Positions 5,177 to 20,176 of a stretch of DNA of 64,000 nucleotides are shown in pieces. Every line of letters starts with the position of its first letter. The stretch's first letter is position 1. A program made the translations under genes and the position numbers. This DNA is from Streptomyces aurantiacus (GTDB lineage: Bacteria; Actinomycetota; Actinomycetes; Streptomycetales; Streptomycetaceae): assembly GCF_027107535.1 (NCBI RefSeq), contig NZ_CP114283.1:3224001-3288000 (forward strand), read 5' to 3'. Under the pieces are notes generated by a model. That model was given only the letters and a program-made list of their open reading frames with translations, was not told the origin of the DNA and did no database searches.

Positions 5177-5221
5177 ACGCTAAGATGAGGTGTTTCGTAT
5201 GTCAATATGCTATCTCGTATG
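5177..5221 (-). promoter_or_regulatory. Promoter with island operator site E (flavin reductase operon)
   Basis: On the minus strand, TTGACA (5205-5200) and TAGCGT (5182-5177) are separated by 17 bp. The operator CATACGAGATAGCATATTG (5221-5203) abuts and overlaps the -35 box. A second half site, TTTCGTATG on the plus strand at 5193-5201, lies 20 bp from TCTCGTATG, inside the spacer. Overlap with the -35 suggests repression by a ligand-responsive regulator, although activation is possible. Confidence 0.7.
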
Positions 5222-5486
5222 GAGTGTCGCAAGTGGGGTGTGGGGGTTCGGCAAGGTTGTTCTCATCGGCGGCGTCGGCTCGCCGGTGGTGCGAACAGCC
5301 GTGCTGTGCGGGTGCCGAGGGATGCCGGGCGCTGCCGGTCGTTTCGTCGAGCGTGCAGAAGGCCACGTCGATCAGTCGCTGGGTCATGTATGGAAGCTTG
5401 GGGCTGTCAGCGAGGCGTCCACGGCGTCGGCCTCCGCCCGCCCGGGTGGAGAGCGGTGATCCCGCACCGCGAGTCTCGACCACCCG

Positions 5487-5945
5487 CTACCGCGACACTC
5501 CCTTGGGATCGTGTGCACCGGGCAGCTTCAGGGCGGCCCGCGGTCCGCTGCGGGAGTGCAGCCACCAGTCGCGCATGCCCCATAGGGCAAGCGCGCCGTA
5601 GGTGACGTGGACGAAGCCGGAGAAGGCGTAGCCGCTGGTGAAGGCCGGCGGGACGCCGACCAGGTCGACCAGGTCGACCAGTAGTCAGGCGATCCAGAAC
5701 TCGACCATGCCGCGTGCCTGGGCGTACATCGCGACGACCGTGCCGACGAAGACGTAGGCGTCCGGCCAAGGGTCCCAGGGCAGTGTCGGGTAGGCCTTGA
5801 ACAGCAGGGCCACGGCGACCGTGCGGACGGTGACGGCGCCCACCGTCGCCGCACGCTCGGTCCATCGCCGCCAGCCGTACAGGGCCACGGTCATGACGAC
5901 GGCCTGCTTACCGGCGCTGCCGGCCGGGTGGCCGAGCGCATCCGT
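5487..5945 (-). pseudogene. pnuC: Broken PnuC-like nicotinamide riboside/NMN transporter
   Basis: The recoverable protein has PnuC features: ALYGWRRW, LPWDPWPDAYVFVGTVVA, YAQARGMVEFWIA, GYAFSGFVHVTYG and ALWGMRDWW. An in-frame TGA at 5687-5685 interrupts FWIA-stop-LLVDL, where the family usually has Trp, so a TGG to TGA change is likely. Just after it, a 9-bp unit is duplicated (VDLVDL). About the first third of the protein is also missing or unrecognisable upstream of 5945. PnuC is a multi-helix vitamin B3-type transporter. It is unrelated to the catabolic genes around it and is likely a leftover from before the island was assembled. Confidence 0.8.
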
Positions 5946-6125
5946 GGGGTCTTCGTGGTTCGCCGTCGGCGGCCGTGTCGGCACGCGCCGCACGGACCGC
6001 TGGGGTGGCGGCAAGGTGAGGCGGCGGCTCGTGTGCCGCCGTGGCCGACGTCGTGGAAGTGGCGCTCCGAGCTCGCACCTGACTACCCGTCAGCTCTTGT
6101 CCGGGCGGGATGTCGGCCTGCCTGC

Positions 6126-6175
6126 ATCTCGCATTTCTGTATCGCTTGACATGATGCTATCTCGCATTGAAAGAT
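6126..6175 (+). promoter_or_regulatory. Promoter with island operator site D (FAH-hydrolase operon)
   Basis: A TTGACA -35 lies at 6146-6151 with a weak AAAGAT -10 at 6170-6175 (18 bp spacing). The operator CATGATGCTATCTCGCATT (6150-6168) fills the spacer. An extra half site ATCTCGCATT at 6126-6135 is repeated exactly at 6159-6168, 33 bp or about three helical turns apart, which would suit cooperative binding. Transcription would start close to the ATG at 6183. Confidence 0.7.
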
Positions 6176-6182
6176 GCCCGCC

Positions 6183-7043
6183 ATGCGAGTAGTGACGACG
6201 GACGCCGGCCTTGGCCGGATCGAGGGCGGGGCCATCGCCCTGCTGGACACGGCTTTTCCGCACGTCGGCGCGGTCCTCGAACAGCAGGGATCGCTGCGGT
6301 GCCTGGAGTCGAGCGCGGTGCGTCGGCGGATCCCGCTCGACGAAGCCACGCTCGTGGCGCCGCTGGGCCGTCCACGCGCTGTGTGGGGCATCGGCCTCAA
6401 CTACGTGTCGAAGGCGGCCCGGGCCGGCCGGGGGCTGCCCGAGCAGCCGATCCTGTACCTGGCCGCGTCGTCCGGCGTCCTGGCACCGGGCGCACAGGTG
6501 GTGATCCCACGGGCCGCGACCGAACCCGACTACGAAGGGGAGATCGCGATCGTCGTCGGGCGCCCGCTGTACCAGGCGTCCGAGTCGCAGATCTGGCCCG
6601 CGATCGCCGGCATCACCGCGGCCAACGACATGACGGCGCGTGATGTCATGCGCGCCACCGCCACGCCCGCCCTCGCCAAGAGCTACCCGGGATTCACGCC
6701 GCTCGGCGCGTCCGTCTGCACCCCCGACGACCTCGCCGACCGCGATGCGATCCGCGTACGGAGCTGGGTCAACGGCGTACTCATGCAGGACGACACGAGC
6801 GCCGGGATGATCTTCCCGGTCGCCGATCTGCTCAGCCGGCTCTCGTGGTTCACCGCCCTCGAACCCGGCGACGTCGTCCTCACCGGAACCCCGGCCGGCA
6901 CCGGCCAGGACCGCGGCTGCTTCCTCGCCGACGGCGACGAGATACGGGTCGAGGTGGACGGCGTACTGCCCCTCGTCACCCGCGTCGTGCGTCCCGCGGA
7001 CGCCTCACCGCACGACCACCGGCTGACCGAACCGGTCAGCTGA
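6183..7043 (+). CDS. Fumarylacetoacetate hydrolase (FAH)-fold family protein
   Basis: This is a 286-residue member of the FAH fold, which hydrolyses, decarboxylates or hydrates 2-oxo/enol acids with Mg2+. The core motif GLNYVSKA matches the family GxNYxxHA, with Lys where His is common. The metal-binding segments are EPDYEGEIAIVVG (Glu ligands) and NDMTARDVM. The C-terminus GDVVLTGTPAGTGQ is diagnostic. The start at 6183 rather than 6174 is chosen because the promoter would begin transcription there, making the message nearly leaderless. It heads an operon with amidohydrolase, aldolase and cupin genes under operator D. It may cleave the ring-fission product of the Rieske/extradiol pathway; the exact substrate is unknown. 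Confidence 0.85.
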   Translation: MRVVTTDAGLGRIEGGAIALLDTAFPHVGAVLEQQGSLRCLESSAVRRRIPLDEATLVAPLGRPRAVWGIGLNYVSKAARAGRGLPEQPILYLAASSGVLAPGAQVVIPRAATEPDYEGEIAIVVGRPLYQASESQIWPAIAGITAANDMTARDVMRATATPALAKSYPGFTPLGASVCTPDDLADRDAIRVRSWVNGVLMQDDTSAGMIFPVADLLSRLSWFTALEPGDVVLTGTPAGTGQDRGCFLADGDEIRVEVDGVLPLVTRVVRPADASPHDHRLTEPVS

Positions 7044-7070
7044 CCGCCCCTCACACTGGAGCACACACCG

Positions 7071-8234
7071 ATGCCCATCTCCTCCCCGTCGTCCTACGAC
7101 CTCGTCCTGGCCGGCGGCACCGTCATCGATCCGGCGTCGGGCACCAACGCCCGGCTCGACGTGGCCGTCACCGGTGACCGCATCGCCGCGATCGGGGAAG
7201 GGCTGGCGGCGGGCGCGGCCCGCACGATCGACGTCACCGGTTCCACCGTGCTGCCGGGCCTCGTCGAGGGCCACACCCACATCTTCCAGTACGTCTCCGC
7301 CGTCGGCGCCCCCGCCGAGGAGGCCCACCTGCGCCGTGGCGTCGTCGCCGCGGCGGACGCCGGCACGGCAGGCGCCTCGACGTTCGCGGCCTTCCGCAAG
7401 CTGGTGGTCGAGGCGAACCCGCTGCGCATCGTCAACTTCCTCAACGTCTCGGTGCTCGGCCTGATCGACTTCAGGTTCGGCGAGCTGCTCAACCCCGACA
7501 CCCTGGTCCCCGAGGACGCGCTCGCGACCGCCGAGGCCCACCCCGACATCGTGCGCGGCTTCAAGATCCGGCTGTCCGAGGACGTCGTCGGCGAGCACTG
7601 GGAGTCGCTGCTGAAGAAGTCCGTGGCGCTGGCCGAACAGGCCCAGCTTCCGCTGATGGTGCACATCGGTGAGACCGAGGAGCCGGTGCCCGTCGTCCTG
7701 GACTACCTGCGCCCCGGCGACATCGTCGCGCACTGCTACACCGGCAAGCCGAACGGCATCCTCGACGGCGACCAGGTGCACCCCGCGGTCATGGCGGCCC
7801 GCGAGCGCGGCGTGCTGTTCGACTCCGCCCACGGCAAGAGCAACCTCAGCTTCGAGGTGGCACGCCGGGCGATCGCCGACGGATTCCTGCCCGACATCCT
7901 CAGCTCCGACACCAGCGCCCGCAACTGGCGCGGCCCGGTGTTCGACCTGCTCACCAGCGTCTCCAAGCTGGTCGCGCTCGGCGCGCCGCTGGAGGAGTGC
8001 ATACGGCGGGCCACCGTCGCCCCCGCAAAGCTGCTCGGCCTCGACACCGAGGGCTACGGGCGCCTGGCGGTCGGCGGTCGGGCCGACGTCACGGTCGTCG
8101 ACTGGACCGACGAGGTCACCCTGCCCGACGCCGCGGGCAACACCATCCTCGCGCCGCGCCTGGAGCCGTCCGTCGTGCTGCACGCCGGCGCCGAGGTCGA
8201 CATCGTGCCGTGGCGCGGTCTGCCGTCGGCATGA
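7071..8234 (+). CDS. Metal-dependent amidohydrolase/deacetylase-type enzyme
   Basis: This is a 387-residue amidohydrolase-superfamily TIM barrel. Visible metal ligands are the HxH pair in GHTHIFQY (about residues 67-69), the carboxylatable Lys in GFKIRLSED (about 165), His in MVHIGE (about 200), His in AHCYTGK (about 223) and Asp in LSSDTSA (about 280). The order and the HCYTG motif resemble the EF0837/dihydroorotase-like deacetylases annotated as amidohydrolase/deacetylase family. It would hydrolyse a cyclic or linear amide, lactam or N-acyl bond. It lies 27 bp after the FAH gene with a GGAG ribosome site. Together with the M20-like protein at 15.6 kb it hints that the island substrate contains an amide. 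Confidence 0.85.
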   Translation: MPISSPSSYDLVLAGGTVIDPASGTNARLDVAVTGDRIAAIGEGLAAGAARTIDVTGSTVLPGLVEGHTHIFQYVSAVGAPAEEAHLRRGVVAAADAGTAGASTFAAFRKLVVEANPLRIVNFLNVSVLGLIDFRFGELLNPDTLVPEDALATAEAHPDIVRGFKIRLSEDVVGEHWESLLKKSVALAEQAQLPLMVHIGETEEPVPVVLDYLRPGDIVAHCYTGKPNGILDGDQVHPAVMAARERGVLFDSAHGKSNLSFEVARRAIADGFLPDILSSDTSARNWRGPVFDLLTSVSKLVALGAPLEECIRRATVAPAKLLGLDTEGYGRLAVGGRADVTVVDWTDEVTLPDAAGNTILAPRLEPSVVLHAGAEVDIVPWRGLPSA

Positions 8235-8262
8235 GAACCCCGCCCGCCCCGGAGAGGACGCG

Positions 8263-9036
8263 ATGACCATCGGCGACGTCCACCTGCTGCGGCGCCGGCT
8301 GCGCGCGGCCCTGACGGCGGGGCGGCCCGCCGTCGGGACGTTCGTCAAACTGGCCTCGCCCGACGTGGTGGAACTGGCTGAGGCGGCCGGGTTCGCGTTC
8401 GTGGTCGTCGACCTCGAACACTCCACCCTCACCGAACAGAACGCCGTCGACCTGGTCCGCCACGCCCACGCCTGCGGCCTGCCGGCCCTGGTCCGCGTGC
8501 CCGAGGTGGACGCCGCCGCCGTCAACCGGCTGCTGGAGGCCGGGGCGGCGGGGATCCAGCTCTCCATGCTCACCCGCGTCGACCAGGCAGAGGCACTCGT
8601 GGCCGCGACGCGGTTCGCGCCCGCCGGCCGCCGCTCGGTCAGCTTGGCCAACAGGGCCGCCCGGTTCGGCGCGCTCCCGCTGGCCGCCTTCCTGGGCGCC
8701 GAGCAGGACGACCCGCCGGTACTGGTCGGCCAGATCGAGACGGCCCGCACCGATCCCCTGCCGGATCTGCTCGCCCCCCTCGACGTGTGCTTCGTCGGCA
8801 GCACCGACCTCGCGGTCGACCTGGGCCTGCCGGACGATCCCACGGTGCTGCGCGCCGCGGTGGACCGCGTGCGCGAGGCCGCCCGCTCGGCGGCGGTGGC
8901 GTTCGGCGGCTGGGCGCCGACCCGGGGCGCGGCGGGACACCTGGGCCTGAGTGACGCCGACTACCTGGTCGTCGGCTCGGACCTGCAAATGCTGGCGGCA
9001 GCCCTGCGCGCCGCCGCCGGAGAGGAGAACCAGTGA
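8263..9036 (+). CDS. HpcH/HpaI-type class II aldolase (2-oxo-acid aldolase)
   Basis: This is a 257-residue member of the HpcH/HpaI TIM-barrel family, metal-dependent pyruvate or acetaldehyde-yielding aldolases. Near the N-terminus the segments GTFVKLASPDVVELAEAAG and FVVVDLEHSTL carry the conserved Asp and catalytic His. The metal-site Glu is in QIETARTD, and FVGSTDLAVDLG is the conserved loop with the second Asp ligand. ATG 8263 has a GGAGAGGA ribosome site 4 nt upstream. It likely splits a 4-hydroxy-2-oxo acid produced after ring cleavage, giving pyruvate plus an aldehyde. Its stop overlaps the cupin start (GTGA). Confidence 0.88.
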   Translation: MTIGDVHLLRRRLRAALTAGRPAVGTFVKLASPDVVELAEAAGFAFVVVDLEHSTLTEQNAVDLVRHAHACGLPALVRVPEVDAAAVNRLLEAGAAGIQLSMLTRVDQAEALVAATRFAPAGRRSVSLANRAARFGALPLAAFLGAEQDDPPVLVGQIETARTDPLPDLLAPLDVCFVGSTDLAVDLGLPDDPTVLRAAVDRVREAARSAAVAFGGWAPTRGAAGHLGLSDADYLVVGSDLQMLAAALRAAAGEENQ

Positions 9037-9389
9037 CCACACGCAACGCGGCATTGTTCAGCACCGTCCTGAACTGGGACGAGCTGCCGGTGACCCAGGT
9101 GCGGCCGGGGGTGCGCCGTCGTGTCTACGCGACGGACGAGATGATGATCTGCCACCACGAGCTCGAGGTCGGCATGACGCTCAACCCGCACCGGCACGAG
9201 GAGTTCGACCAGCTGGTCCATATCGCCCAGGGGCGAGCGAACTACTACGTGGACGGTGTCGCGCACGACATGCGCGCGGGCTCGTTCCTGCTGGTCCCCC
9301 GAGGCAGCGAGCACTATGTGGAGCCGACGGAGGCGCCCTGCGTGAACATCGACTTCTTCGTCCCGCCGCGTGCCGACCTGCTTCCCTGA
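9033..9389 (+). CDS. Cupin-domain protein
   Basis: This is a 118-residue single cupin. Motif 1 is NPHRHEEFDQLVHIAQGRANYYVDG, giving His, His and Glu metal ligands, and motif 2 is GSFLLVPRGSEHYVEP with the last His ligand. Small cupins of this kind act as isomerases, epimerases, dioxygenase subunits or ligand sensors. The GTG start overlaps the aldolase stop by 4 bases, so it is coupled to the aldolase and shares operator D. Its precise reaction is not evident; tautomerisation or stereochemical inversion of a catabolic intermediate is one inference. Confidence 0.8.
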   Translation: MTTRNAALFSTVLNWDELPVTQVRPGVRRRVYATDEMMICHHELEVGMTLNPHRHEEFDQLVHIAQGRANYYVDGVAHDMRAGSFLLVPRGSEHYVEPTEAPCVNIDFFVPPRADLLP

Positions 9390-9933: not shown

Positions 9934-10731
9934 TCAGCCGCCGTTGGGTTCGCCGTCCGAGGGGCCGAGCCGCTGCGACAGCGCGCGGGCGGTTTCCAGC
10001 AATGCCTGGGCCATCGGCGCCTTGACGTCGTCGGGGACCGTCGCCGTCGTGCCGACGACCGCGAGCGTCCCGCTGATCTTGTCGCCGTCGAAGATCGGTG
10101 CCGCGATGGTGCGGACCCCGTTGACCGCGGGGGAGTTGACCGACAGCCCGTGGTGCCGGATGGCGGCGAGTTCGTCGGCGAGTTCGGCCGACATGCGGAC
10201 CGAGCGCGGCAGCGGCGGTACCTGGTCCGGGGGCAGGAAGGTGAGGAAAATCCGTCCCTGTGCCGAGGAGGTGAGGTCGAGACGTGAGCCGACCCGGACG
10301 CTGATGCGCACCATGTGGTCGGTGTTGTCCACCGAGCGCACCACGGTTGCCGACTCGCCGTCCCAGACCGACAGCACGATCGTCTCGTCGATACGCCGGA
10401 CCAGGTCCTCCATGTACGGCTCGGCGGCGGCGACGATCGGCAGGCCGGCCCGCGCGGCCGCAGCGAGCGTGAGCACCTGGGATCCGAGGGAGTAGAGCGA
10501 GGTGCGCTCGTCGTACCGCAGCAGGTTCGCCGCACGCAGTGCCTTCGTGTAGCGGTGCGCGGTCGCCTTGCTCGCCCCGAGACGTGCGGTGATCTCGTTG
10601 AGATTCATGTGCGGCTTGCCGACCGTGAACGAGCCGAGGATCAGCGCCGCACGCTGCACCGTCTGGATGGTCGGCGCGGTCGTGTCGGGACCGCTTCGTT
10701 CGCCGGTGCCGGGCTGCGCCTTCGTGGCCAT
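9934..10731 (-). CDS. IclR-family transcriptional regulator
   Basis: This is a 265-residue regulator with an N-terminal winged helix-turn-helix (about residues 22-85: TIQTVQRAALILGSF, MNLNEITARLGASKATAHRY and LLRYDERTSLYSLGSQVL) followed by the IclR effector-binding GAF-like domain, including SSAQGRIFLTF and a C-terminal strand region with AAPIFDGDKISGTLAVVG. IclR proteins typically control aromatic-acid catabolism. It sits centrally in the island and is the only regulator between 0.3 and 20 kb, so it is the best candidate for binding the repeated operator. Its own promoter region (10735-10830) lacks that operator. A GGAACGCCGTATCG-like stretch there could be a different autoregulatory site. 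Confidence 0.88.
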   Translation of the reverse strand: MATKAQPGTGERSGPDTTAPTIQTVQRAALILGSFTVGKPHMNLNEITARLGASKATAHRYTKALRAANLLRYDERTSLYSLGSQVLTLAAAARAGLPIVAAAEPYMEDLVRRIDETIVLSVWDGESATVVRSVDNTDHMVRISVRVGSRLDLTSSAQGRIFLTFLPPDQVPPLPRSVRMSAELADELAAIRHHGLSVNSPAVNGVRTIAAPIFDGDKISGTLAVVGTTATVPDDVKAPMAQALLETARALSQRLGPSDGEPNGG

Positions 10732-10874
10732 GAAATCTTACTCCTGTTGTCCCGTACTCAGTAAGAGGGTAAGACGTTGAATGGAACGCCGTATCGAATA
10801 GCGTAACGGTGGGAGTCGGGGAAATGTGCGGGAAAGGCTGAGGTGCTCCGCCACCGCGAGCTGAGCCGTCGGAA

Positions 10875-10940: not shown

Positions 10941-11954
10941 TCACATGTCGGAGGAGTGCCCCGGTGTGAGAGAGCGTGCCGGGTCGAGCAGGGAGGCGAT
11001 GTGGTTGACGGCGAGGGCCGCCTCGCCGAAGCCGATCGAGATCAGGCTGACCTTGCCGTCGTGGTCGGCGATGTCGCCGGCCGCGAAGACGCGTTCCCGG
11101 TTTGTGCGCATCGTGCGGTCGACGAGGATGCGTCGGCGGCGCAGCTCCAGTCCCCACTGCTCGATCGGCCCGAGATCGGCGATGAAGCCGAGCGCGGCGA
11201 CGACGGACTGGGCGGGCAGGCTGACCCGGTCGCCGTCCGGGCTCGCGACCACGACCTCGGACACCGCCCCGTCGGCCGACCCGTCGCCGGAGATCTTCTC
11301 GACCTCGTAGGGCGTCAGGACTCGCACGGAGGACGCGTGCACCTGCTCGACGGTGCGTTCGTGGGCCCGGAACCGCGTACGCCGGTGCACCAGCGTCACC
11401 GACGAGGCGATCGGCTCCAGCGACAGCGCCCAGTCCAGCGCGGAGTCCCCGCCGCCGACCACCACGACGTCCTGTCGGGCGAGTTCGTCCAGGCGCGGCA
11501 CGAAGTACCGAAGCCCCCGGCCCAGGTAGTCGGAGCCCACCGGAAGCTCGCGGGGGACGAAGTTGCCGATCCCGCCGCAGACGAGCACCGCCCCCGCGGT
11601 GATCCGCGCGCCGGCGTCGGTGGTGGCGACGATGCCCTCGCCCGCGTCGTCGAGGCGGATGACCCCGTGCCCGAGCAGGTAGGTCGGGTTCCACCGCCCG
11701 GCCTGCTCGGCCAGCCGGTCCACCAGGTCCTGGCCGCGGACGGCGGGGAAGCCGGCCACGTCGTAGACGAGCTTCTCGGGGTACAGCGCGGCGATCTGGC
11801 CCCCCACCTCGGGCAGTGCGTCGGCGACCGCGACGCTCAGGCCGCGGAAGCCGGCGTAGTACGCGCCGTACAGCCCCGTCGGGCCGGCACCGATGACGAG
11901 CAGATCGACGGTCACCTCGGAGCCGTCGCCCTTGACGGTCGGGAGGACACTCAC
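10941..11954 (-). CDS. Ferredoxin-NAD(P)+ reductase, thioredoxin-reductase type (FAD)
   Basis: This is a 337-residue flavoprotein. The FAD-binding GxGxxG is VIGAGPTGLYGAYY near residue 20, the NAD(P)-binding motif is VVVGGGDSALDWAL near 155, and FAAGDIADHDGKVSLISIGFGEAALAVNHI is the FAD-binding C-terminal signature of the Fnr2/TrxR-like reductases that lack redox cysteines. The GTG start overlaps the ferredoxin stop (GTGA), so earlier in-frame codons are rejected. It would pass electrons from NAD(P)H to the adjacent ferredoxin for the Rieske oxygenase encoded divergently. A hairpin terminator follows. Operator A lies ahead of the ferredoxin and should control both. Confidence 0.87.
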   Translation of the reverse strand: MSVLPTVKGDGSEVTVDLLVIGAGPTGLYGAYYAGFRGLSVAVADALPEVGGQIAALYPEKLVYDVAGFPAVRGQDLVDRLAEQAGRWNPTYLLGHGVIRLDDAGEGIVATTDAGARITAGAVLVCGGIGNFVPRELPVGSDYLGRGLRYFVPRLDELARQDVVVVGGGDSALDWALSLEPIASSVTLVHRRTRFRAHERTVEQVHASSVRVLTPYEVEKISGDGSADGAVSEVVVASPDGDRVSLPAQSVVAALGFIADLGPIEQWGLELRRRRILVDRTMRTNRERVFAAGDIADHDGKVSLISIGFGEAALAVNHIASLLDPARSLTPGHSSDM

Positions 11955-12292
11955 GCTCCCACCTCGGGGTGATCGTGGCCGACCCGGCCGACCTTGCGCG
12001 CGCCGCCGGGCGACCCGAGCGGCTCGGCTCCGCCGATTCCGAGGGTGAAGAACTCGGTGTTGATGCGCTCGGCCTGCTGGGACTCGGCCGGCAGGTCCTC
12101 GTGGTGGAAGATCGAGATCTGTGGGCAGACGGGTTCGCAGCGCCCGCACTCGACGCATTCGTCGGGCTGGATGTACAGCATCCGGTCGCCCTCGTAGATG
12201 CAGTCGGCCGGGCACTCCTCCATGCAGGACTTGTCCATGACGTCGAGACATGCCTGAGTGATGACGTACGGCACGGGCTTCTTGCCCTTCAC
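11951..12292 (-). CDS. Ferredoxin, [3Fe-4S][4Fe-4S] FdxA-like
   Basis: This is a 113-residue ferredoxin starting MKGKKPVPYVITQACLDV. The cysteine pattern CLDVMDKSCMEECPADC followed by CVECGRCEPVCP is that of seven-iron actinobacterial ferredoxins, with a C-terminal extension of about 50 residues. The GTG start at 12292 leaves a very short leader after operator A. It is coupled to the FAD reductase and most likely delivers electrons to the Rieske oxygenase, although bacterial ring-hydroxylating oxygenases more often use 2Fe-2S ferredoxins. FdxA types also serve cytochromes P450, but none is encoded here. Confidence 0.88.
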   Translation of the reverse strand: MKGKKPVPYVITQACLDVMDKSCMEECPADCIYEGDRMLYIQPDECVECGRCEPVCPQISIFHHEDLPAESQQAERINTEFFTLGIGGAEPLGSPGGARKVGRVGHDHPEVGA

Positions 12293-12304: not shown

Positions 12305-12323
12305 TATGCGAGATGGCGTCTTC
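12305..12323 (-). promoter_or_regulatory. Island operator site A (ferredoxin/reductase promoter)
   Basis: TATGCGAGATGGCGTCTTC lies 13-31 bases upstream of the ferredoxin start. It matches sites B-E. On the minus strand CATACT (12309-12304) inside the site could act as the -10 box, which would place the operator over the promoter core and leave a short leader. The box assignment is tentative; the operator match is strong. Confidence 0.65.
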
Positions 12324-12384
12324 TAATGCGGAACGTGGAATGCATGATGACGGCGTCGGTCCAGGGTGTCAACCATCAGGTGAT

Positions 12385-12443
12385 TGCTTGACATCGTCGC
12401 GTGTGCTAGGAGAAGCTGATGCGACATACGAGATGGCGTCTCA
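12385..12443 (+). promoter_or_regulatory. Promoter with island operator site B (Rieske oxygenase operon)
   Basis: CATACGAGATGGCGTCTCA (12425-12443) shares 15 consecutive bases (CGAGATGGCGTCT plus flanks) with site A. Upstream, TTGCTT with TAGGAG 17 bp later is the best promoter reading; an overlapping TTGACA gives only 13 bp spacing. The operator would then lie just after the start of transcription, 45 bases ahead of the Rieske ATG, a position typical of repression. Confidence 0.65.
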
Positions 12444-12487
12444 CAGCGCGCCACTCGGGTCGGGACTTGTGAGAGGCAAACGCCGTA

Positions 12488-13840
12488 ATGGGAAGCAACC
12501 CCCGGACCGTCCCAGCACCGATGATCGTCGAGGACTGGGACCTGCTCACCTTCCGGGTCAACCGCGAGGCCTACCGCAGCGCGGAGATCTTCACCCGGGA
12601 ACGCGGCTGGGTGTGGACACACACCTGGCTCTACCTCGGCCACGAGACCGAGATCCCCAACCCCAACGACTTCAAGGTCCGCACCCTCGGGGGCCGACCG
12701 CTGATCTTCTGCCGGGACAGCGCCGGCGAGGTGCACGCCTTCCTGAACTCCTGCCCGCACCGCGGCACCGTGCTGTGCCGCGAGAGCGAGGGCTCGACCA
12801 GGCTCTTCCAGTGCTTCTACCACGCCTGGACATTCCGCAACAACGGTGACCTCGCCGCGATCCCCGACGCCGACGCGTACGAGTCGACCGACGAGTTCAA
12901 GGCGTCCATGGGCCTGCGCGGCGTGCCGCGCCTGGAGATCCACGAGGGATTCGTCTTCGTCGCCTTCGATCCGGACGTTCCGCCGCTGCTCGAACACCTC
13001 GGCGATGCCGCCGACTACATGACGATGATCGAACAGCAGCACGTCGGCGGCATGACCACACTGCCCGGCACACAGAAGTACAGCGTGCGGGGCAACTGGA
13101 AACTCGCCGTCGAGAACGCGATGGACGGCTACCACTTCGCGCCGACGCACAACACGTTCGTGGGCTACCTGCGCGAGAGCGGCTACGCCGTCACCGACGA
13201 CAACCAGTACGCCTACAACCTCGGCAACGGCCACGGGCTGCTGGTCCTCACCGGGCACGGCGGACGGATCAGCATGGAGTGGGAACCGCGCTTCGGCGAG
13301 GCCGAGCGGGTGCGCACCGAGGCCCACCGAGCCGAGATGACGCGGCGGCTGGGGGAGAAGCGAGCACATCACGTGGCAGACGAGAGCCACATCCTGTTCG
13401 TGTTCCCCAACCTGCTGCTGTTCGACATCGAGGGCCTGTCGATCCGGCAACTGGAGCCGGTGGCGCCCGACCAGACCGATGTGCGCGCCTGGCAGCTGGT
13501 GCCCCGCAACGAGGACCCGGACACCCGCGCCCTGCGCATGAAGACGGTCGTCAGCTTCGTCGGCCCGGGCGGGCTCGCCACGCCTGACGACATCGAGGCG
13601 TACGAGGCGGTCCAGCGCGGCATCCAGGCCACGGTCGGCACCGCCGCGCCCGAGCTGGACTACAGCGACATGTCGCGCGGCATGGCCGACGAGGTCAAGG
13701 GCGTACAGGGCAGGTCGACCGACGAAGGCGCGATGCGGGGCTTCTGGCGGCACTGGATCGAAGCCGTCGGGCTGGAGAACGAACTCCAGGTCCACGGCCG
13801 GCGTCCGGAGTCCTTCCTCGCGGGAAGGGACGTGCGATGA
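12488..13840 (+). CDS. Ring-hydroxylating oxygenase, Rieske large (alpha) subunit
   Basis: This is a 450-residue protein with both domains of aromatic-ring-hydroxylating oxygenases. The Rieske [2Fe-2S] site is SCPHRGTVLC followed by CFYHAWTF (about residues 86-120). The mononuclear iron site is carried by ENAMDGYHFAPTHNTF (about 210-225), with the bridging Asp and two His, and a C-terminal Asp is expected near DYSDMSRG. Length and layout fit the naphthalene/biphenyl/benzoate-type alpha subunits. It would insert O2 into an aromatic ring to give a cis-dihydrodiol or catechol-like product, using the ferredoxin and reductase encoded divergently. It heads the operon behind operator B and overlaps the beta subunit by 4 bp. 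Confidence 0.93.
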   Translation: MGSNPRTVPAPMIVEDWDLLTFRVNREAYRSAEIFTRERGWVWTHTWLYLGHETEIPNPNDFKVRTLGGRPLIFCRDSAGEVHAFLNSCPHRGTVLCRESEGSTRLFQCFYHAWTFRNNGDLAAIPDADAYESTDEFKASMGLRGVPRLEIHEGFVFVAFDPDVPPLLEHLGDAADYMTMIEQQHVGGMTTLPGTQKYSVRGNWKLAVENAMDGYHFAPTHNTFVGYLRESGYAVTDDNQYAYNLGNGHGLLVLTGHGGRISMEWEPRFGEAERVRTEAHRAEMTRRLGEKRAHHVADESHILFVFPNLLLFDIEGLSIRQLEPVAPDQTDVRAWQLVPRNEDPDTRALRMKTVVSFVGPGGLATPDDIEAYEAVQRGIQATVGTAAPELDYSDMSRGMADEVKGVQGRSTDEGAMRGFWRHWIEAVGLENELQVHGRRPESFLAGRDVR

Positions 13841-14361
13841 GCGCGACCACCAACACCCACTCCCTGCGGTGCGGGGGACGCACCGTCACCCGGCCCGAGG
13901 TGGAGGACTTCCTCTACGCGGAGGCGGACATCCTCGACCACTGGAACTACGACGGCTGGCTGGCCCTCTTCGAGCCCGGCGCCCGCTATGAGATCCCTAC
14001 CACCGACTACCGTCCCGGCTGGTCGCCGCACGAGACCGGATCGTTCGTCGACGACGACTGGGACCTGCTCCGCGCCCGGGTCAAGCGCATGAAGTCCCGC
14101 AAGGCGCACGCCGAGAACCCGCACTCGCGAACGCACCGGCTGGTGTCCAACGTGCGGCTGTCCGAGCACAGCGAGGATTCGTTCCGGGTGGCCGCGTCCT
14201 TCGTGGTGCACCGCGCCCGCGACGGGCACTTCGACGCCTACGTCGGCTGGTACGAGCACGTACTGGTGCCGACCGAGGACAGCCTGCGTTTCCGCTTGCG
14301 GCGCTCGATCCTCGGCCACGAGTCGCTGGCGGCAGGCGCCCGGCTCAGCTTCATCCTCTAG
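13837..14361 (+). CDS. Ring-hydroxylating oxygenase small (beta) subunit
   Basis: This is a 174-residue NTF2-fold beta subunit of ring-hydroxylating dioxygenases. VEDFLYAEADILDHWNYDGW, DDDWDLLRARVKRM and the diagnostic HSRTHRLVSNVRL are visible, and the C-terminus has the RFRLRRSIL strand. It is structural, pairing with the alpha subunit in an alpha3beta3 assembly, and binds no metal. The ATG overlaps the alpha-subunit stop (ATGA), so expression is coupled. A two-subunit oxygenase with a dedicated ferredoxin and reductase next to it makes a complete three-component system. Confidence 0.92.
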   Translation: MSATTNTHSLRCGGRTVTRPEVEDFLYAEADILDHWNYDGWLALFEPGARYEIPTTDYRPGWSPHETGSFVDDDWDLLRARVKRMKSRKAHAENPHSRTHRLVSNVRLSEHSEDSFRVAASFVVHRARDGHFDAYVGWYEHVLVPTEDSLRFRLRRSILGHESLAAGARLSFIL

Positions 14362-14382: not shown

Positions 14383-15594
14383 ATGATCCGACACACCCTG
14401 TCCTTCCGTTTCGACGACGGCGTCGACCAGGCCACGCGCGAGTCCGTACTGGCCGAGCTGCGTACCTTCCCGGACCGGTACCCGGCGATGCGCGGCTTCG
14501 TCCTCGGCGAGAACGTCAGCACCCGCGACCAGACCTTCACCCACACGATGGCCGTCGACTTCGACAGCCAGGACGACCTGCTCGCCTATCTCGGCAGCGA
14601 GTCCCACGAGAACTTCGTGCACACACGCTGGCGACCGGTCATCGGCCGGCAGGCCATCACCTCGTTCGAGTACGCCGAGCGTCCCTCGCTCGCTGCAGGA
14701 AGGACATCCCCAGTGAGCACACGCCCGCACGCCCCGTTCGGCATGGAGTACGCCCGGATCGAGGTTCCGGACATGCAGGCCACGATCGACTTCCTCGAGT
14801 ACCACGTCGGACTGCAGCTGGAGCAGCGTACGGACGAGTACGCCTACCTGCGCGCCGACATCGAGCACCACGCGATCGAGCTGATCAACGCGCCTGAGCG
14901 GACCGACGGGTGGACGACCGCCGTCGGCTACAGCGTGGAGAACGAGGAGGTCCTCGATCAGCTGCGCAAGAGCGTCGCCGACGCCGGCCTCGACATCCTG
15001 GACCTGCAGGAGCGGCAGCAGGCGCTGTGCGAGAACGGCTTCGCGGTCAAGGACCCCAACGGCCTCATCGTCGAACTGTTCACCGAGTTCCAGGAGTACG
15101 CCGAGCCGCCGCACATCGAGATCAGGCCGCTCGACCTGGTGCACCCCTTCATCGCCACCGCGAAGTACGAGGAGTCGCTGGACTTCTACCGGAACGTCCT
15201 GAAGTTCGTATCCTCGGACTACGTCGTCGGTTCGACCACGTTCCTCCGTGGCGAGGACCGTTACCACCACAGCCTCGCGCTGCAGAACAACAAGGAGCAC
15301 TTCACCGCGCACCTGTGCTTCGCGATGAAGAGCCTCGACCACGTCATGCGGATGCGCGCCCGCGCGCTGTACAAGGGCGCGCCGATCGCCTCCGACATCG
15401 TCAACCACTCGGCGTCGACATCGATCGCGTTCTACCTGCACGACACGCGTTTCGGCCCGCGGTTCGAGCTGTGCGACAGCCACCGGGTGCTCACGCCGGA
15501 GGAGCACGAGACGCACCGGGCCCGCAGGATGCCGGCCGACCCGCGCAACATCGACGTGTGGCGTCCGGCGTCCGACGACTGGGGACGTTTTTGA
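14383..15594 (+). CDS. Fused Dabb-domain + two-module VOC extradiol dioxygenase
   Basis: This is a 403-residue frame with two parts. Residues 1-100 (IRHTLSFRFDDGVDQ through VHTRWRPVIGRQAITSFEY) match a dimeric alpha/beta barrel (Dabb) protein. Residues 111-403 are two VOC modules resembling type I extradiol dioxygenases. The three iron ligands appear in the second module: His in LDLVHPFIAT, His in RYHHSLALQ and Glu in PRFELCDSH. Between the parts, GGAAGGA at 14698-14704 precedes an in-frame GTG at 14713, so the dioxygenase can also be made alone (293 residues). It probably cleaves the catechol-like product of the Rieske oxygenase. The Dabb part may be a stress-type barrel, lactonase-like helper or fused by loss of a stop codon. 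Confidence 0.85.
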   Translation: MIRHTLSFRFDDGVDQATRESVLAELRTFPDRYPAMRGFVLGENVSTRDQTFTHTMAVDFDSQDDLLAYLGSESHENFVHTRWRPVIGRQAITSFEYAERPSLAAGRTSPVSTRPHAPFGMEYARIEVPDMQATIDFLEYHVGLQLEQRTDEYAYLRADIEHHAIELINAPERTDGWTTAVGYSVENEEVLDQLRKSVADAGLDILDLQERQQALCENGFAVKDPNGLIVELFTEFQEYAEPPHIEIRPLDLVHPFIATAKYEESLDFYRNVLKFVSSDYVVGSTTFLRGEDRYHHSLALQNNKEHFTAHLCFAMKSLDHVMRMRARALYKGAPIASDIVNHSASTSIAFYLHDTRFGPRFELCDSHRVLTPEEHETHRARRMPADPRNIDVWRPASDDWGRF

Positions 15595-16754
15595 GACAGC
15601 AGGTGCTTGACGTCCTGCGCCTGCTCGACGCGACCCCCGCGCCACGTGGCGCGGAACGGACGGCGGCGCACCGGCTGCGCGCCTGGTGCGCCGACCGGTG
15701 GCCGCACGTCGAGTGGCAGGTGGTGGAGCACGGCCCCGCGGGCGGCAGCCTGATCGCCACGCACGGGGCCGGGCCGCTGCTGTACTCCCATCTCGACACG
15801 TCGCTGGACGACGGCGGGGCGCACAACCCGCTTGTCACCGGCAACGCCGCGCCCGTCGCTCCGCTCGCCGTGGACGGCGACGTGGTGACCGGCTTCGGTC
15901 TCGGGGTCGCCCGCGCGCCGATGGCGGCCGCACTGGTCGCGTTCGCCGAGGCGGGCGCCGGACGGCTGCTGCTCGCGGGCTCCGGTACGCACCGCCGCGC
16001 CGGCGGGACCACAGGGCTGGAGGCCTACGCCGACTCGTACCCACTGCCGCGGTCGGCGATCGTCGCCAAGTGCGGCCCGCCCACCCTGCTGTGGCACGAG
16101 CCGGGCGCGTTCTACCTGACGGTCACGGTGACCGGCCGCTCCGGGGCGGCGATGGCGGCGGAGTCCGCCACGCCCCCCGGGGGAGTCGTAGCCGGGGCCG
16201 GCGTCGTCCTGGAGGAGCTGGCCCGCTGGCGCACGGACTACCTGGCCGCCGACCCGCGCGAAGGGCAGACCGGCCGGGCGTGCGGTATCGGCGCGATCAG
16301 CGGCGGATGGCCGGACAAGCCGGACCTGTTGCCGGCCCAGCTGCGGATCGATCTCTACGTCGTCGCAGGTGACCGGGTCGAACCGACGGCGCTGGCGGCC
16401 GAGCTGGCCGACCGGCTGCGGGCACGTTGCGCGAAGTCGGCGCTGCGCGACTGCGCGGTCGAGGTGGAGGCCGAGCCGGTCACGGCAGCAGCGGCGACGC
16501 CGGCCGACGCCCCGGTGGTGACGGCCGCGCGGGCGGCCTGGCTCGACGAGTTCGGTGAGCAGCCGCCGCCGGTCACCGGCTGGACGGGATCGACCGACGG
16601 CGTCGTACTGCGCGCCCGCGGCGTGGAGACCGTGCGCCTCGGCCCGCAGGCGAAGCCGGCCGCCGACGATCCCCGTCGAGACGCCCTGTCGTTGGGGCAG
16701 CTGACCGCCTACGCGCGCGTCTACCGCCGGCTGTTGACCGAACTGCCGGCGTAG
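15591..16754 (+). CDS. M20-family peptidase/deacylase-like protein with altered metal site
   Basis: This is a 387-residue protein. The TTG start overlaps the previous stop (TTGA); GTG 15603 is an alternative. The N-terminal [11 protein letters not shown] holds the His-x-Asp pair of M20 enzymes such as ArgE, DapE and aminoacylases, and the C-terminal part resembles the M20 dimerisation and closing domain ([21 protein letters not shown]). The middle motifs are changed. The usual bridging Asp (DMKGG-like) is read as [11 protein letters not shown], and the catalytic Glu-Glu appears as [11 protein letters not shown]. It may be a divergent hydrolase with substitute ligands (His-Arg) or an inactive binding protein. 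Its place in the Rieske operon ties it to the same substrate. Confidence 0.7.
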
Positions 16755-16790: not shown

Positions 16791-16847
16791 CACTCAGCGA
16801 ACAATTACTCAGCGAACAACCACTGAGCGAACAACCAATCAGCGCAG
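16791..16847. repeat. Four 15-bp tandem direct repeats ahead of the CoA transferase
   Basis: CACTCAGCGAACAAT, TACTCAGCGAACAAC, CACTGAGCGAACAAC and a partial CAATCAGCGCAG follow head to tail with an exact 15-bp period from 16791. The array lies between the M20-like stop (16754) and the CoA-transferase start. Iterated sites of this type usually bind a regulator side by side; the sequence is unlike the main island operator. Confidence 0.75.
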
Positions 16848-16862
16848 GGCGCTTCGCCCTGC
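16844..16862 (+). promoter_or_regulatory. Hairpin in the CoA-transferase leader
   Basis: GCAGGGCG, CTT loop, CGCCCTGC: a perfect 8-bp stem directly after the tandem repeats and 18 bases before the ATG at 16881. No T-tract follows on the plus strand and AGAAAAG follows the stem, so it could either weakly terminate the upstream operon or shape the leader. Confidence 0.45.
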
Positions 16863-16880
16863 AGAAAAGTGGGCGGGCGG

Positions 16881-17651
16881 ATGGACAAGGTGGTCGCTTC
16901 CGCGGCCGAGGCGGTGGCGGACGTCCCGGACGGGGCGTCCCTCGCCGTCGGCGGCTTCGGACTCAGCGGAATCCCGGGGGCCCTGATCCAGGCCCTGCAC
17001 GACGCCGGCGTCACGGAACTCGACGTCGTCTCCAACAACTGCGGGGCGGGGGAATCCGGCCTCGCAGTGCTCCTCGCCTCGGGCCGGATAGCCCGGGTCA
17101 CCGGCAGCTACATCGGCGGCAACAAGGAGTTCGCCCGCCAGTACCTGGGCGGCGAGATCGAGCTGGAGCTGATCCCGCAGGGCACCCTCGCCGAGCGGCT
17201 GCGGGCCGGGGGCTGCGGCATCCCGGCCTTCTACACCCCGGCCGGGGTCGGCACCCAGGTCGCCGACGGCGGGCTGCCCTGGCGCTACGACGGCGGGGGC
17301 GGCGTCGCCGTCGCCTCACCGGCCAAGGAGGTCCGCGACTTCGACGGCGCCGCCCACGTCCTGGAACGTGGGATCACCACCGACTTCGCCCTGGTGCGGG
17401 CGGCGAAGGGCGACCGGCACGGCAACCTCGTGTTCAACAAGTCCGCCCGCAACTTCAACCCCCTCGCCGCCATGGCCGGCCGTATCACGATCGCCGAGGT
17501 GGAGGAGCTCGTCGAACCGGGCGCGATCGATCCCGACCACGTCCATCTGCCGGGCATCTTCGTCCAGCGCGTGGTGGTCCTCAGCCCCGAGCAGGCCGCC
17601 GACAAGAAGATCGAGAACCTCACGGTGACGCCCAGGGAGGTGCGGGTCTGA
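16881..17651 (+). CDS. 3-oxoacid/3-oxoadipate CoA-transferase subunit A
   Basis: This is a 256-residue class I CoA-transferase alpha subunit. It shows the [16 protein letters not shown] coenzyme A loop near residues 28-43, [17 protein letters not shown], and [19 protein letters not shown], all standard for ScoA/PcaI. It transfers CoA from succinyl-CoA to a 3-oxo acid such as acetoacetate or 3-oxoadipate. ATG 16881 is preferred to GTG 16869 because homologues begin MDKVV. It overlaps subunit B by one base. A thiolase relic follows subunit B, recalling pcaI-pcaJ-pcaF order, which favours 3-oxoadipate or a similar ring-derived 3-oxo acid as substrate. Regulation may run through the 15-bp repeat array. 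Confidence 0.88.
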
Positions 17652-18298
17652 TGGCCTGGACACGGGACGAGATGTCCGCCCGCGCGGCCCGCGAGCTGCG
17701 CGACGGCGAGTACGTCAACCTGGGCATCGGGCTGCCGACGCTGATCCCCAACCACCTGCCCGAGGGTGTCCACGTCGTGCTGGAGTCGGAGAACGGCATC
17801 CTCGGCACCGGTCGTTTCCCGTACGAGGACGAGGTCGACCCGGACCTGATCAACGCGGGCAAGGAGACCGTCACCGTCCTGCCGGGCGCGGCCTACTTCG
17901 ACTCCGCGCTGTCGTTCGGCATGATCCGCGGCGGCCACATCGACGCGGCCGTGCTCGGCGCCATGCAGGTCTCCGAACGGGGCGACCTCGCCAACTGGGC
18001 GATCCCCGGCAGGATGGTGACCGGTATCGGCGGAGCCATGGACCTCGTGCACGGTGCCCGCCGAGTGATCGTCACCATGACCCACACCGCCAAGGACGGC
18101 ACCCCGAAGATCGTGCGGGAGTGCGATCTGCCGCTCACCGGAAAGGGCTGCGTGGAGCGGATCATCACCGACCTCGGCGTCCTCGACGTCACCGACGACG
18201 GCCTTCTCCTCGTCGAGACCGCCCCCGGCGTCACCGCCGAGGAGATCACCGTGAAGACGGCGGCGAATGTGCTCATCCCTTATGGAACCCGCTCGTAG
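17651..18298 (+). CDS. 3-oxoacid/3-oxoadipate CoA-transferase subunit B
   Basis: This is a 215-residue class I CoA-transferase beta subunit. The catalytic Glu is in LESENGILG (about residues 45-53), with [17 protein letters not shown] before it and [14 protein letters not shown] and [12 protein letters not shown] after it, all typical of ScoB/PcaJ. The ATG overlaps the stop of subunit A (TGATG), so the two chains are made in equal amounts for the active heterotetramer. The thiolase that should complete the step to acyl-CoA and acetyl- or succinyl-CoA is present only as a relic downstream, so thiolysis must be supplied from elsewhere. Confidence 0.9.
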
Positions 18299-18343
18299 CC
18301 GGCCCTCCGTGGCGCGTACGACCTGGCAGCACGCCCGTGCTGC

Positions 18344-18442
18344 CTGCCGGTCACCGTTCCCGGAGCGAACGTCGAGGGGCTGTGCGCGTCGGGCCTGGAG
18401 GCCGTGCTCAGGGCCCGACGCGCCGTCGCCGTCGGTGAGGGC
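18344..18442 (+). pseudogene. Thiolase fragment around the active-site cysteine
   Basis: One frame reads LPVTVPGANVEGLCASGLEA and goes on VLRARRAVAVGEG. This is the thiolase nucleophile region (families read VPGVTVNRLCGSGLEAV...A.AIAVGEA). Only about 33 codons remain, and neither the N-terminal nor the two C-terminal thiolase motifs occur nearby. Its place 45 bp after the CoA-transferase B subunit matches pcaIJF-type order, so a pathway thiolase was once here. Confidence 0.7.
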
Positions 18443-18646
18443 ACCCCGAACTCGTCGCCGACCGGGATCAAGGCCGTACACACGGCCCAGGTCCGTCGGC
18501 GACCGGTGTATGTCGCCCCGCTCGCGCCCGGATCCAGGCCCCGGCGTGTGGAGATCACCGGCCCGTCGGCCGTGAGCCGACGGGCCGCTCGACGTGCTCG
18601 ACTCGGCTGCGTGGGCGCGCTCGTGGACCTCTTGGCTGTGGAAAAC

Positions 18647-18685
18647 GACCGCCGCAGCCATGGGGTCGCTATGGCTGCGGCGGTC
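18647..18685 (-). terminator. Intrinsic terminator of the TauD-like gene
   Basis: A perfect 15-bp stem (18647-18661 with 18671-18685) and a 9-nt loop is followed on the minus strand by GTTTTC. It lies 92 bases after the stop of the minus-strand dioxygenase and faces the CoA-transferase relic from the other side. Confidence 0.75.
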
Positions 18686-18777
18686 GGTACTTCTCCAGGG
18701 CGGCACCCCGACGGTCAGCGGCGCTGGTCGAGCGACCGCTGTCCGAGAGGCGCGGCCCTCACCGGGAGGGCGAGGCG

Positions 18778-19851
18778 TCACACACCCCAGTCGTCATTGA
18801 CGGTGACGGCGTCGGTGATGCCGAACCGGCCGCCGGGCACCAGGGGGGTGGCGGGCTCACCCATCACGACGACATGCTTGCCGAACCGGGGCGCCAGCGG
18901 TCGGCCGACGTCGCGCTTGAGCCACAGACGCAGCAGGTGTCGGCGACGCTCCGGTTCCGGGTGGTCGATGTAGCTGGTGCGCGAGTGCAGTGCGGCGTAG
19001 TTGAGCAGCCACTGCACGTCCCCCGGCTGGAAGTCCATGTCGATCGGCAGGCCGGGTTCCTGCGAGATCTCGTCGAAGAGGCTGATGGCTGCGGCCTGGT
19101 CGGGCGTCAGTTGGGGGACGCCGGGGTACTCCTGGGCGCTGAAGATCATCGAGTTGCCCGCGTAGGTGCTGAAGACGCCGTCGACGTGGCTGATGATCGG
19201 CGAGGTGTACGTGAGTTCCGGGGAGTCGGGGTCCTGACGCCGCCAGTCCCAGTGGTAGGTGTCGAAGAGCCGCGCGGCGAGGTCCGGCCGGCGGCGCAGC
19301 ATCTCGTTGTAGATCGTGGTGCCGCTGACCAGGCTGGAGGCTCCGCCCTCCTTGGCGCCGCGCAGGCACATGAGGGCGACGACGTCGGAGCTGTCCGAGT
19401 GGAACGGGAGTCGGTCGCGTACGCGGGAGGGCAGCGCGCCCTCGTCGGACAGCGTCATGTTCGACGTGGCGACCACGTGGTCGAGCAGGTCGCCCCGCTG
19501 GTTCTGCCCGATCGGCTGGCCGAGGTGCAGGCCCATGACGAAGAAGATGGCCGCGGCCATGGGGTCGCCGTACTCCTCGGTGCGCAACCCGCGCACCAGG
19601 ACGAAGCCCCGGCCGGCGTCCATCTGGCGGGCGCACTCGTCGTTCAGGGCGCGACAGGCGTCGAAGGGGTAGTCGGCGGCGGTGACGGTGCGCAGGTCGG
19701 GGTCGTCGGCGACGAAGCGCCGTCCCAGGTCTTCCAGCTCGGTGCGCTCGGCGTCGCTGAGTACATAGATCCAGTCAGTGGACTTCGACAGCTCGTCGCC
19801 GCGCCAGGCGGACGGCCCGGAGATCGGCTGAAGGCCGACAGTGGTGGTCAC
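18778..19851 (-). CDS. TauD/TfdA-like Fe(II)/2-oxoglutarate-dependent dioxygenase
   Basis: This is a 357-residue jelly-roll dioxygenase. The iron site is His-x-Asp in LPFHSDSSD (about residues 148-152) with the distal His in AALHSRTSY (about 293). Arg in RRRHLLRLWL (about 305) would bind 2-oxoglutarate. RGFVLVRGL is the usual N-terminal strand of the TauD/TfdA family. It would hydroxylate or dealkylate a substrate (ether, sulfonate or N-methyl cleavage in known members). A promoter with operator C lies about 280 bases upstream, ahead of a small frame, so it belongs to the island regulon. A terminator follows. Confidence 0.88.
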   Translation of the reverse strand: MTTTVGLQPISGPSAWRGDELSKSTDWIYVLSDAERTELEDLGRRFVADDPDLRTVTAADYPFDACRALNDECARQMDAGRGFVLVRGLRTEEYGDPMAAAIFFVMGLHLGQPIGQNQRGDLLDHVVATSNMTLSDEGALPSRVRDRLPFHSDSSDVVALMCLRGAKEGGASSLVSGTTIYNEMLRRRPDLAARLFDTYHWDWRRQDPDSPELTYTSPIISHVDGVFSTYAGNSMIFSAQEYPGVPQLTPDQAAAISLFDEISQEPGLPIDMDFQPGDVQWLLNYAALHSRTSYIDHPEPERRRHLLRLWLKRDVGRPLAPRFGKHVVVMGEPATPLVPGGRFGITDAVTVNDDWGV

Positions 19852-19957
19852 GATGATGCGCTCCTCGAAAATGTGATGGCAAAGCCCGTCGGTGACGACA
19901 CGACGGACGACGAACGTTCGGTGTGGCGGGGGCTCGTCGCACGGCGACGAACCGCGC

Positions 19958-20098
19958 TCAGAAGGGAGTCTGAGGCTCGCCGACAGCCGTGCCGGGGCGC
20001 AGTCCCTCCCGGGGAGGGAAGTAGCTGAGCGGCTCGTCGTAGGTCCGGCGGCCGGCGCATGACACGAGCAGGACGCCGATCAGAGCGACTGGCCTCAT
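19958..20098 (-). CDS. Possible 46-residue leader protein of the TauD-like operon
   Basis: Signals line up: promoter 20157-20129, predicted start of transcription near 20122, AAAGGA at 20114-20109, then ATG at 20098. The product begins MRPVALIGVLLVSCAGRRTY, a short hydrophobic stretch ending in a cysteine, and continues DEPLSYFPPREGLRPG to PQTPF. I recognise no family. It stops 106 bases before the dioxygenase start. As with the small frame ahead of the flavin reductase, a short gene follows an island operator. It could be a real small membrane or lipid-anchored peptide or a regulatory leader. Confidence 0.4.
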   Translation of the reverse strand: MRPVALIGVLLVSCAGRRTYDEPLSYFPPREGLRPGTAVGEPQTPF

Positions 20099-20128
20099 GC
20101 TGGTCCCGTCCTTTCGAGAAGTACCTCA

Positions 20129-20176
20129 ACCATAGGAGACGTCTGGGTCGGGGTCAATATGCGAGACATCGTCTCG
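20129..20176 (-). promoter_or_regulatory. Promoter with island operator site C (TauD-like operon)
   Basis: On the minus strand, TTGACC (20157-20152) and TATGGT (20134-20129) are 17 bp apart. TATGCGAGACATCGTCTCG (20158-20176) abuts the -35 and contains the best palindrome of the set, CGAGAC-ATC-GTCTCG read as CGAGAC/GTCTCG arms. The layout (operator, ATATTGAC) is the same as at site E. Confidence 0.72.

Follow-up and report, generated by a model that had tools for sequence, protein, structure and literature searches.

The window analysed here is a 64,000-nucleotide stretch of Streptomyces aurantiacus (contig NZ_CP114283.1, positions 3,224,001 to 3,288,000). It carries part of a catabolic island in which a recurring sequence, probably the operator of an IclR-family protein, is found at the promoters of different gene units. 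The gene for this protein (9934–10731, −) encodes the domains HTH_IclR and IclR_C, which scored 39.2 bits (PF09339, cut-off 22) and 86.4 bits (PF01614, cut-off 24), as expected of a member of that family. A flavin reductase gene (4403–5056, −; PF01613) is followed by genes for an FAH-family protein (6183–7043, +; PF01557, start inferred from orthologue sequences), an amidohydrolase (7071–8234, +), an HpcH/HpaI aldolase (8266–9036, +, start provisional) and a cupin (9033–9389, +). Beyond the regulator gene lie genes for a ferredoxin reductase (10941–11954, −) and a ferredoxin (11951–12292, −), and then those for Rieske dioxygenase alpha (12488–13840, +) and beta (13837–14361, +), a Dabb plus extradiol dioxygenase protein (14383–15594, +) and a metallohydrolase-like protein (15591–16754, +). 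From the amidohydrolase to the metallohydrolase, the assignments of these catabolic genes rest on domain searches combined with a comparison to the lumichrome (lum) cluster described below. CoA-transferase subunits A and B (16869–18298, +; PF01144 found twice) might act in the uptake of an acetoacetate end product. A TauD/TfdA-family dioxygenase gene (18778–19851, −; PF02668) and an unannotated open reading frame (ORF) of 46 amino acids (19958–20098, −) complete the set.

Five 19-mers reported by an earlier note on this DNA were all present with the coordinates and orientations given there (5203–5221, 6150–6168, 12305–12323, 12425–12443 and 20158–20176). The consensus proposed for them, ATRCGAGAY-RKC-RTMT, was recovered by a core pattern search at four sites (A, C, D and E), while the site at 6150–6168 (B) departs from it by ending in ATCA. 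A 19-column matrix built from the five sites scored those same sites at 26.1–30.6 bits, and the best further matches in the window were 3462 (−) with 20.6 bits and then one of 13.3 bits. In a leave-one-out analysis, each held-out site still ranked above all non-members in the window. A simulation of 100 windows under a first-order model reached the scores of the five held-out sites 0, 0, 0, 1 and 2 times. The statement that no other promoter in the window carries the motif is thus nearly right, the exceptions being a decayed duplicate at 3462 and a weak 9.2-bit site at 10782.

The 19-bp extent was too short, since a third box 20 bp after the first was missed. It is present in all five sites: A CATACGAAAC, B CAAGCGATAC, C AATGCGGAAC, D AGCGCGCCAC and E GATGCATTAC. 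With this box included, operator A (5192–5221, −; 43.6 bits) serves the flavin reductase unit, B (6139–6168, −; 41.3 bits) the unit from the FAH-family protein to the cupin, and C (12305–12334, +; 40.2 bits) the ferredoxin and reductase genes and perhaps iclR. Operator D (12425–12454, +; 26.0 bits) stands before the Rieske alpha and beta, extradiol and metallohydrolase genes, perhaps together with the CoA-transferase genes, and E (20158–20187, +; 36.2 bits) before the small ORF and tauD. These scores come from a three-box matrix built on eight sites of this genome, five in the window and three upstream of it, and are therefore not independent for those eight. The third box was examined in a non-circular manner by scanning 60 loci, collected through relatives of the IclR protein with 10-kb flanks, with a matrix restricted to the first two boxes. 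It occurred at +20 in 90 of 312 unique two-box matches (palindromic sites count on both strands), while 26 other offsets gave 0–5 matches, save +25 (24), +15 (15) and +33 (10). The consensus of 98 non-redundant sites, which were chosen by the matrix at ≥20 bits and are hence biased towards it, was AATGCGAGAYRSCRTCTYGYMATGCGANAC.

The operator consists of R1 (ATRCGAGAY), an inverted R2 and R3 (ATRCGRNAC, 20 bp after R1), boxes of alternating direction separated by three bases on either side of R2. According to the available text of Suvorova and Gelfand (2021; PMC8222616), IclR half-sites are arranged as GKTYCRYW3-4RYGRAMC or TGRAACAN1-2TGTTYCA, and a three-box type, known from PcaU, PobR and HmgR, was assigned to 32 of 181 orthologous groups, with binding of PcaU reported to need the third box. 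The spacers of three and three bases unite both published arrangements in one site, and the layout agrees with that of the three-box class, one pair of boxes having group 1 spacing and the other group 2. Like the operators of PcaU, PobR and HmgR, those of the window combine a palindrome with an external direct half-site, have boxes that in part resemble RYGRAMC and belong to aromatic catabolism. Across the eight sites of this genome, the match to RYGRAMC was 5–6 of 7 positions for R1, 3–6 for R2 and 4–7 for R3. The differences are that family boxes have A where the core RCGAGAY has G, and that several window operators overlap −35-like sequences or sit just before start codons, unlike published three-box operators. 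The switch type is already known, and the window operator is very probably a new example of it.

The island extends into the 18 kb upstream of the window (locus L001, contig positions 3206001–3224000), where a scan with the three-box matrix identified further sites. These were located at 3891 of L001, between a formamidase and a TauE permease gene (38.1 bits, followed after 20 bp by a partial tandem copy), at 8276, between the ADH1 and ALDH genes (36.2 bits), and at 1835 (site J, 34.6 bits). Site J faces a GPP34-family (Golgi phosphoprotein 3) gene (L001:1985–2605, +), which on the basis of this arrangement looks like a regulon member. A weaker site at 11202 (17.2 bits), before ADH2 and BMP/ABC uptake genes, was left out of matrix building and is kept almost letter for letter in loci L074, L076, L077 and L078. 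Altogether, eight strong three-box sites and three weaker candidates lie within about 36 kb. By comparison, the available text of PMC8222616 describes IclR family members as generally controlling themselves and one or two adjacent operons. A genome-wide search with a loose core allowing two mismatches hardly rose above noise, giving 1031 matches where the reversed pattern gave 786, and three-box patterns were used instead. With such a pattern, the genome-wide scan advised in the earlier note returned 8 matches, of which 6 were in the catabolic island. Outside the island, the core pattern also had six exact matches (L003–L008), which scored at most 13.1 bits with the 19-mer matrix and were taken as chance.

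Promoters of orthologous clusters, for which a comparison had also been advised, carry the motif. In the 60 loci, the three-box matrix gave 239 matches of at least 17 bits in 59 loci, and the reversed matrix gave 2. A site was found within 400 bp of the start of 44 of 45 Rieske alpha genes, 34/39 FAH genes, 29/32 ferredoxin genes, 9/9 formamidase genes, 5/5 ADH1 genes, 5/6 ALDH genes and 3/3 flavin reductase genes, and of 11 of the 42 LumF-like M20 genes. None lay within that distance of the extradiol (0/36), amidohydrolase (0/39), VOC (0/34), SnoaL (0/30) or AKR (0/18) starts. The reversed matrix produced two matches in all these promoter counts together, both at iclR. The FAH promoters of L010, L011, L013 and L019 have two tandem operators with 25 bp spacing instead of one. 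Thirteen Streptomyces loci share 86–92% IclR identity with the window protein. In Streptomyces sp. V4I2 (L009), with an IclR protein of 92% identity, most catabolic genes were unmatched and the best site reached only 21 bits; judging from this locus, operators may decay together with the cluster.

The link between operator and regulator was addressed by co-occurrence. Among 150 genomes of the genus, an IclR relative (E ≤ 1e-60) was found in 5, and these held 25 matches to the pattern RCGAGAYNNCRTN8RCGNNAC, of which 23 lay no more than about 26 kb from iclR. Among the 145 genomes lacking the relative, 31 matches were spread over 28 genomes, and the reversed pattern gave 10 in all 150. A route free of IclR was taken through Rieske alpha, which was searched in 392 genus, 394 class and 396 phylum genomes (overlapping draws) and yielded 10 genomes with 66–100% relatives, the present one included, and 5 with only 41–43% relatives. 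The candidacy of the IclR protein, put forward in the earlier note, is favoured by its presence (E ≤ 1e-40) in all 10 genomes with a Rieske orthologue and in none of the 5 with a 41–43% relative. The pattern RCGAGAYNNYRTMTN6RCRNNAY was likewise present in 9/10 of the former and 0/5 of the latter; the tenth genome had matrix matches of about 20 bits near its ALDH and Rieske starts. Furthermore, in five Microtetraspora loci (L044–L047 and L050) the only genes matched were iclR and a TauE-like one, and there an operator is located at the iclR promoter. The proposal of one operator marking one catabolic regulon at different units is thus supported by the genome scan, the orthologous promoters and the co-occurrence with IclR. 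Taken together, these comparisons make it probable that the IclR-family protein at 9934–10731 owns the recurring three-box operator. Repression is its likeliest mode of control. The protein itself has no close characterised relative: it scored 89.1 bits with the PcaR/PcaU/PobR subfamily model TIGR02431 (cut-off 284.75), despite the similar operator layout, and 93.2 bits with the BhcR model NF045644 (cut-off 350).

Several observations weigh against this assignment. Within the operators, D and E have weaker third boxes, which match 5 and 4, respectively, of the 7 family positions, and R2 is weak (3–4 of 7) in A, B and the two upstream sites G and I. One short locus (L067, 4.2 kb) had no site of at least 17 bits, and sites were found at only 11 of 21 tauD starts, at none of the 5 TauE-like starts and at 35 of 74 iclR starts, paralogues included, with none of the 13 Streptomyces iclR promoters having a three-box site of at least 17 bits. 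The promoter counts are not independent, because a single site is counted for both genes of a divergent gap and because the loci are related to one another. Co-occurrence in the 60 loci is built in, since these were found by IclR, and only the Rieske-based search is free of such selection, with 10 genomes including the present one. Pattern matches were somewhat more frequent in the 145 genomes without IclR (31) than in the reversed control (10 in all 150). Moreover, two of the 28 pattern matches of the Rieske-based search (G573:C67 and G728:C2) lay on contigs that carry neither iclR nor the Rieske gene, and in G573 the IclR and Rieske genes themselves were on different contigs.

The mode of control was considered from the position of the operators relative to predicted promoters. 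Operator A has a −35-like TTGACA inside (5205–5200), and operator B contains TTGACA (6146–6151) followed after 18 bp by AAAGAT (6170–6175) and after another 7 bp by the ATG at 6183. This start is the likely one for FAH, because several relatives lack the ATG further upstream (6174) or have it in another frame, and the promoter layout is likely to fit leaderless translation from it. The ALDH promoter is built similarly (TTGACA-17-CAAGGT-6-ATG). Among the promoters listed, TTGAC was inside or at most 30 bp from the operator in 27 of 27 for FAH and 5 of 5 for ALDH. Its regular occurrence there, together with an operator consensus that differs at this place, suggests that promoter and operator were superimposed by selection. 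A consensus promoter scan reported only the predictions 12372–12344, 20157–20129 and 19882–19853, those of A and B, which have weak −10 hexamers, being passed over. C and E had been described as abutting the −35 in the same way; this is correct for E, which touches TTGACC (20157–20152) of TTGACC-17-TATGGT (20157–20129, −), and not for C, which ends 12 bp before the ferredoxin start codon, downstream of the predicted promoter at 12372–12344.

As a −35 lies in or beside the operator at several promoters, the likeliest mechanism is repression that is relieved by a metabolite of the pathway. At each unit the IclR protein would cover the −35 or the start region and block RNA polymerase, and lumichrome or a pathway intermediate would release it, so that all units switch on together. 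A similar system is PheR of Sphingobium, which the available text of PMC13273656 describes as an IclR repressor beside ring-hydroxylation genes, derepressed by substrate, with a footprint spanning the transcription start from +23 to −21. PheR differs in acting at one promoter with a 44-bp footprint and an essential GCAACG core, and in being proteobacterial. An alternative is that the same protein on the same operator is an activator, recruiting RNA polymerase together with its inducer. The three-box layout is known from PcaU, PobR and HmgR, of which PcaU and PobR, the best known members, are activators, and the family includes activators, repressors and dual regulators according to the available text of PMC8222616. 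Operators C and D lie downstream of −35-like sequences and not over them, which also counts against repression, yet compared with activation this downstream position favours occlusion, as does the −35-like TTGACA in or beside the operator at A, B, upstream site I and in relatives, all of these promoters being predicted. An activator therefore appears unlikely, though it is the most plausible of the alternatives.

A second alternative concerns other regulators. The IclR protein had been called the only regulator in the island; it is the only one identified within the coordinates covered by the earlier note, and the upstream part holds two more, a LysR-type gene (L001:314–1249) in or beside the regulon span and a PucR-type gene (L001:9784–11010, +) directly after the ALDH gene with its operator. 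Either of them might own the operator, with IclR acting elsewhere or only on itself. Both genes are within or next to the regulon span, and PucR, placed after an operator-bearing gene, is kept in four same-genus relatives (the L073/L074 genome, L077 and L078 among them). Yet neither protein was matched in the 60 loci, within the limit of their 10-kb flanks, although 59 of these carry the motif; Microtetraspora loci keep the ALDH operator, have ADH2 following and show no PucR match; and the motif both fits the IclR class and occurs at iclR promoters where only iclR and the TauE-like gene were matched. Ownership by PucR or LysR is accordingly very improbable, and the IclR protein is preferred as the owner; the PucR-type protein is a possible second layer of control. 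In a third alternative no dedicated regulator exists and the motif is a repeated element or one that accompanies promoters, as TTGACA embedded in several copies and a duplicated promoter segment in the island (site F) might suggest. This is hardly credible, given copies at non-homologous promoters in both orientations with fixed internal spacing, conserved across families and scarce in genomes without IclR.

Two further sites of the window were treated separately. Site F (3462–3480, −) was considered as a sixth operator and rejected, being a decayed duplicate of the promoter at 6150 and the FAH 5′ end. The segment 3375–3636 aligns with 6060–6328 with a score of 97, against a maximum of 58 in 200 shuffles, and no third box was present at +20 of site 3462. 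Site F is probably a rearrangement scar, as this alignment indicates, and a flavin-reductase segment was probably inserted there, since SnoaL and FAH are neighbours in several relatives. The weak site K (10782–10800, −; 9.2 bits) lies at the iclR promoter, and its core is still recognisable in an alignment with 10 Streptomyces loci; autoregulation of iclR through site K is possible.

The likely function of the regulon was deduced by comparison with the lum cluster of Nocardioides simplex ATCC 6946, the enzymes of which were used to reconstitute lumichrome catabolism (Sinha et al. 2025; PMC12746152). In the 48 kb around its IclR gene (L028), the order is IclR, ferredoxin reductase and ferredoxin (LumA/B), LumC–F, LumH–M, LumN, transport genes, LumT, LumU and LumV–Y, the lum letters having been given to ORFs by order, size and family in the paper text, not by accession numbers. 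The proteins of the present island are related to LumC (80%), LumW (78%), LumE (76%), the LumA/B ferredoxin (75%), LumY (75%), LumD (73%), IclR (69%), the LumA/B reductase (68%), LumV (65%), LumX (62%), LumN (61%), LumU (59%) and LumF (57%), and more distantly to the ABC (51%) and BMP (35%) proteins, LumT (ADH1, 30%) and LumM (amidohydrolase 2, 27%). The ring-opening half of the pathway is thereby represented by nearly full-length relatives of LumA–E and LumW–Y with 62–80% identity. The N. simplex IclR relative adjoins lumA/B, and six sites of at least 16 bits were found in this cluster, distributed over five gaps: 299192 and 299317 (lumB/lumC), 303826 (before lumH), 314429 (lumN/lumO), 321266 (lumT/lumU) and 323708 (lumU/lumV). 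The reversed matrix gave none.

The two clusters thus share relatives of LumA–F, LumN, LumU and LumV–Y, the BMP/ABC uptake genes, an IclR relative and operators. The present island has in addition a formamidase, two flavin reductases, TauD with the small ORF, AKR, VOC, SnoaL, CoA-transferase and PucR. In L001, the window and L002, the regions searched for LumH–L, LumI, J, K and L had no match at E ≤ 1e-3 and LumH had only two partial matches (66 and 80 residues). As no full-length counterpart of LumH–L exists in the island, its pathway would be a variant sharing the ring-opening half; the same gap argues that the substrate may not be lumichrome itself. Variants of the lum pathway were expected by its authors (PMC12746152). 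By protein similarity and gene content, the island represents a variant of the cluster for lumichrome (riboflavin) catabolism. A broader proposal, to which we give an even chance, is that the protein is a dedicated actinobacterial lumichrome sensor, an IclR repressor recognising lumichrome or 7-carboxylumichrome-like intermediates and controlling both the proven Nocardioides lum cluster, by way of operators in the gaps between its units, and a variant in Streptomyces whose upper pathway differs.

It was only in 2025 that a reconstitution of the complete riboflavin catabolic pathway was reported (PMC12746152). No regulator is named in the main text of this paper, where neither "IclR" nor "operator" occurs; no paper linking lumichrome with IclR was found in the open-access literature. 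The operator therefore gives the lumichrome breakdown pathway its first candidate control circuit. It could serve as a marker predicting the regulator, transcription units and variants of the cluster in genera such as Streptomyces, Actinomadura and Micromonospora, and it points to the formamidase, the GPP34-family gene and the small unannotated protein as candidate members. If the inducer is lumichrome, the IclR protein would also be a ready biosensor for this plant-growth and quorum-sensing-mimic signal, and a lumichrome sensor would connect a signal molecule of the rhizosphere with a switch of transcription.

The small protein deserves separate mention. Operator E starts 307 bp from tauD, and in 11 relatives the centre of the site is 266–344 bp from the tauD start. 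The 46-codon ORF between them is conserved, with a C-terminus of RPGTAxGxPQTPF, and differences by codon position, summed pairwise over 8 sequences, amounted to 60, 96 and 257; the unit of E is hence taken as the small ORF plus tauD. A profile search with the ORF collected 64 proteins, none with a precomputed Pfam domain, and those with names were hypothetical or uncharacterised. Elsewhere in the window, a luciferase-like gene (34913–35974) was considered as a riboflavin-lyase-like (RcaE) enzyme and dropped, its best solved relatives being F420-dependent reductases. Finally, by eye in the ORF list, the frames flanking a transposase-like gene (20787–21871, −; region 20202–22425), presumably IS630-like, look like one interrupted gene.

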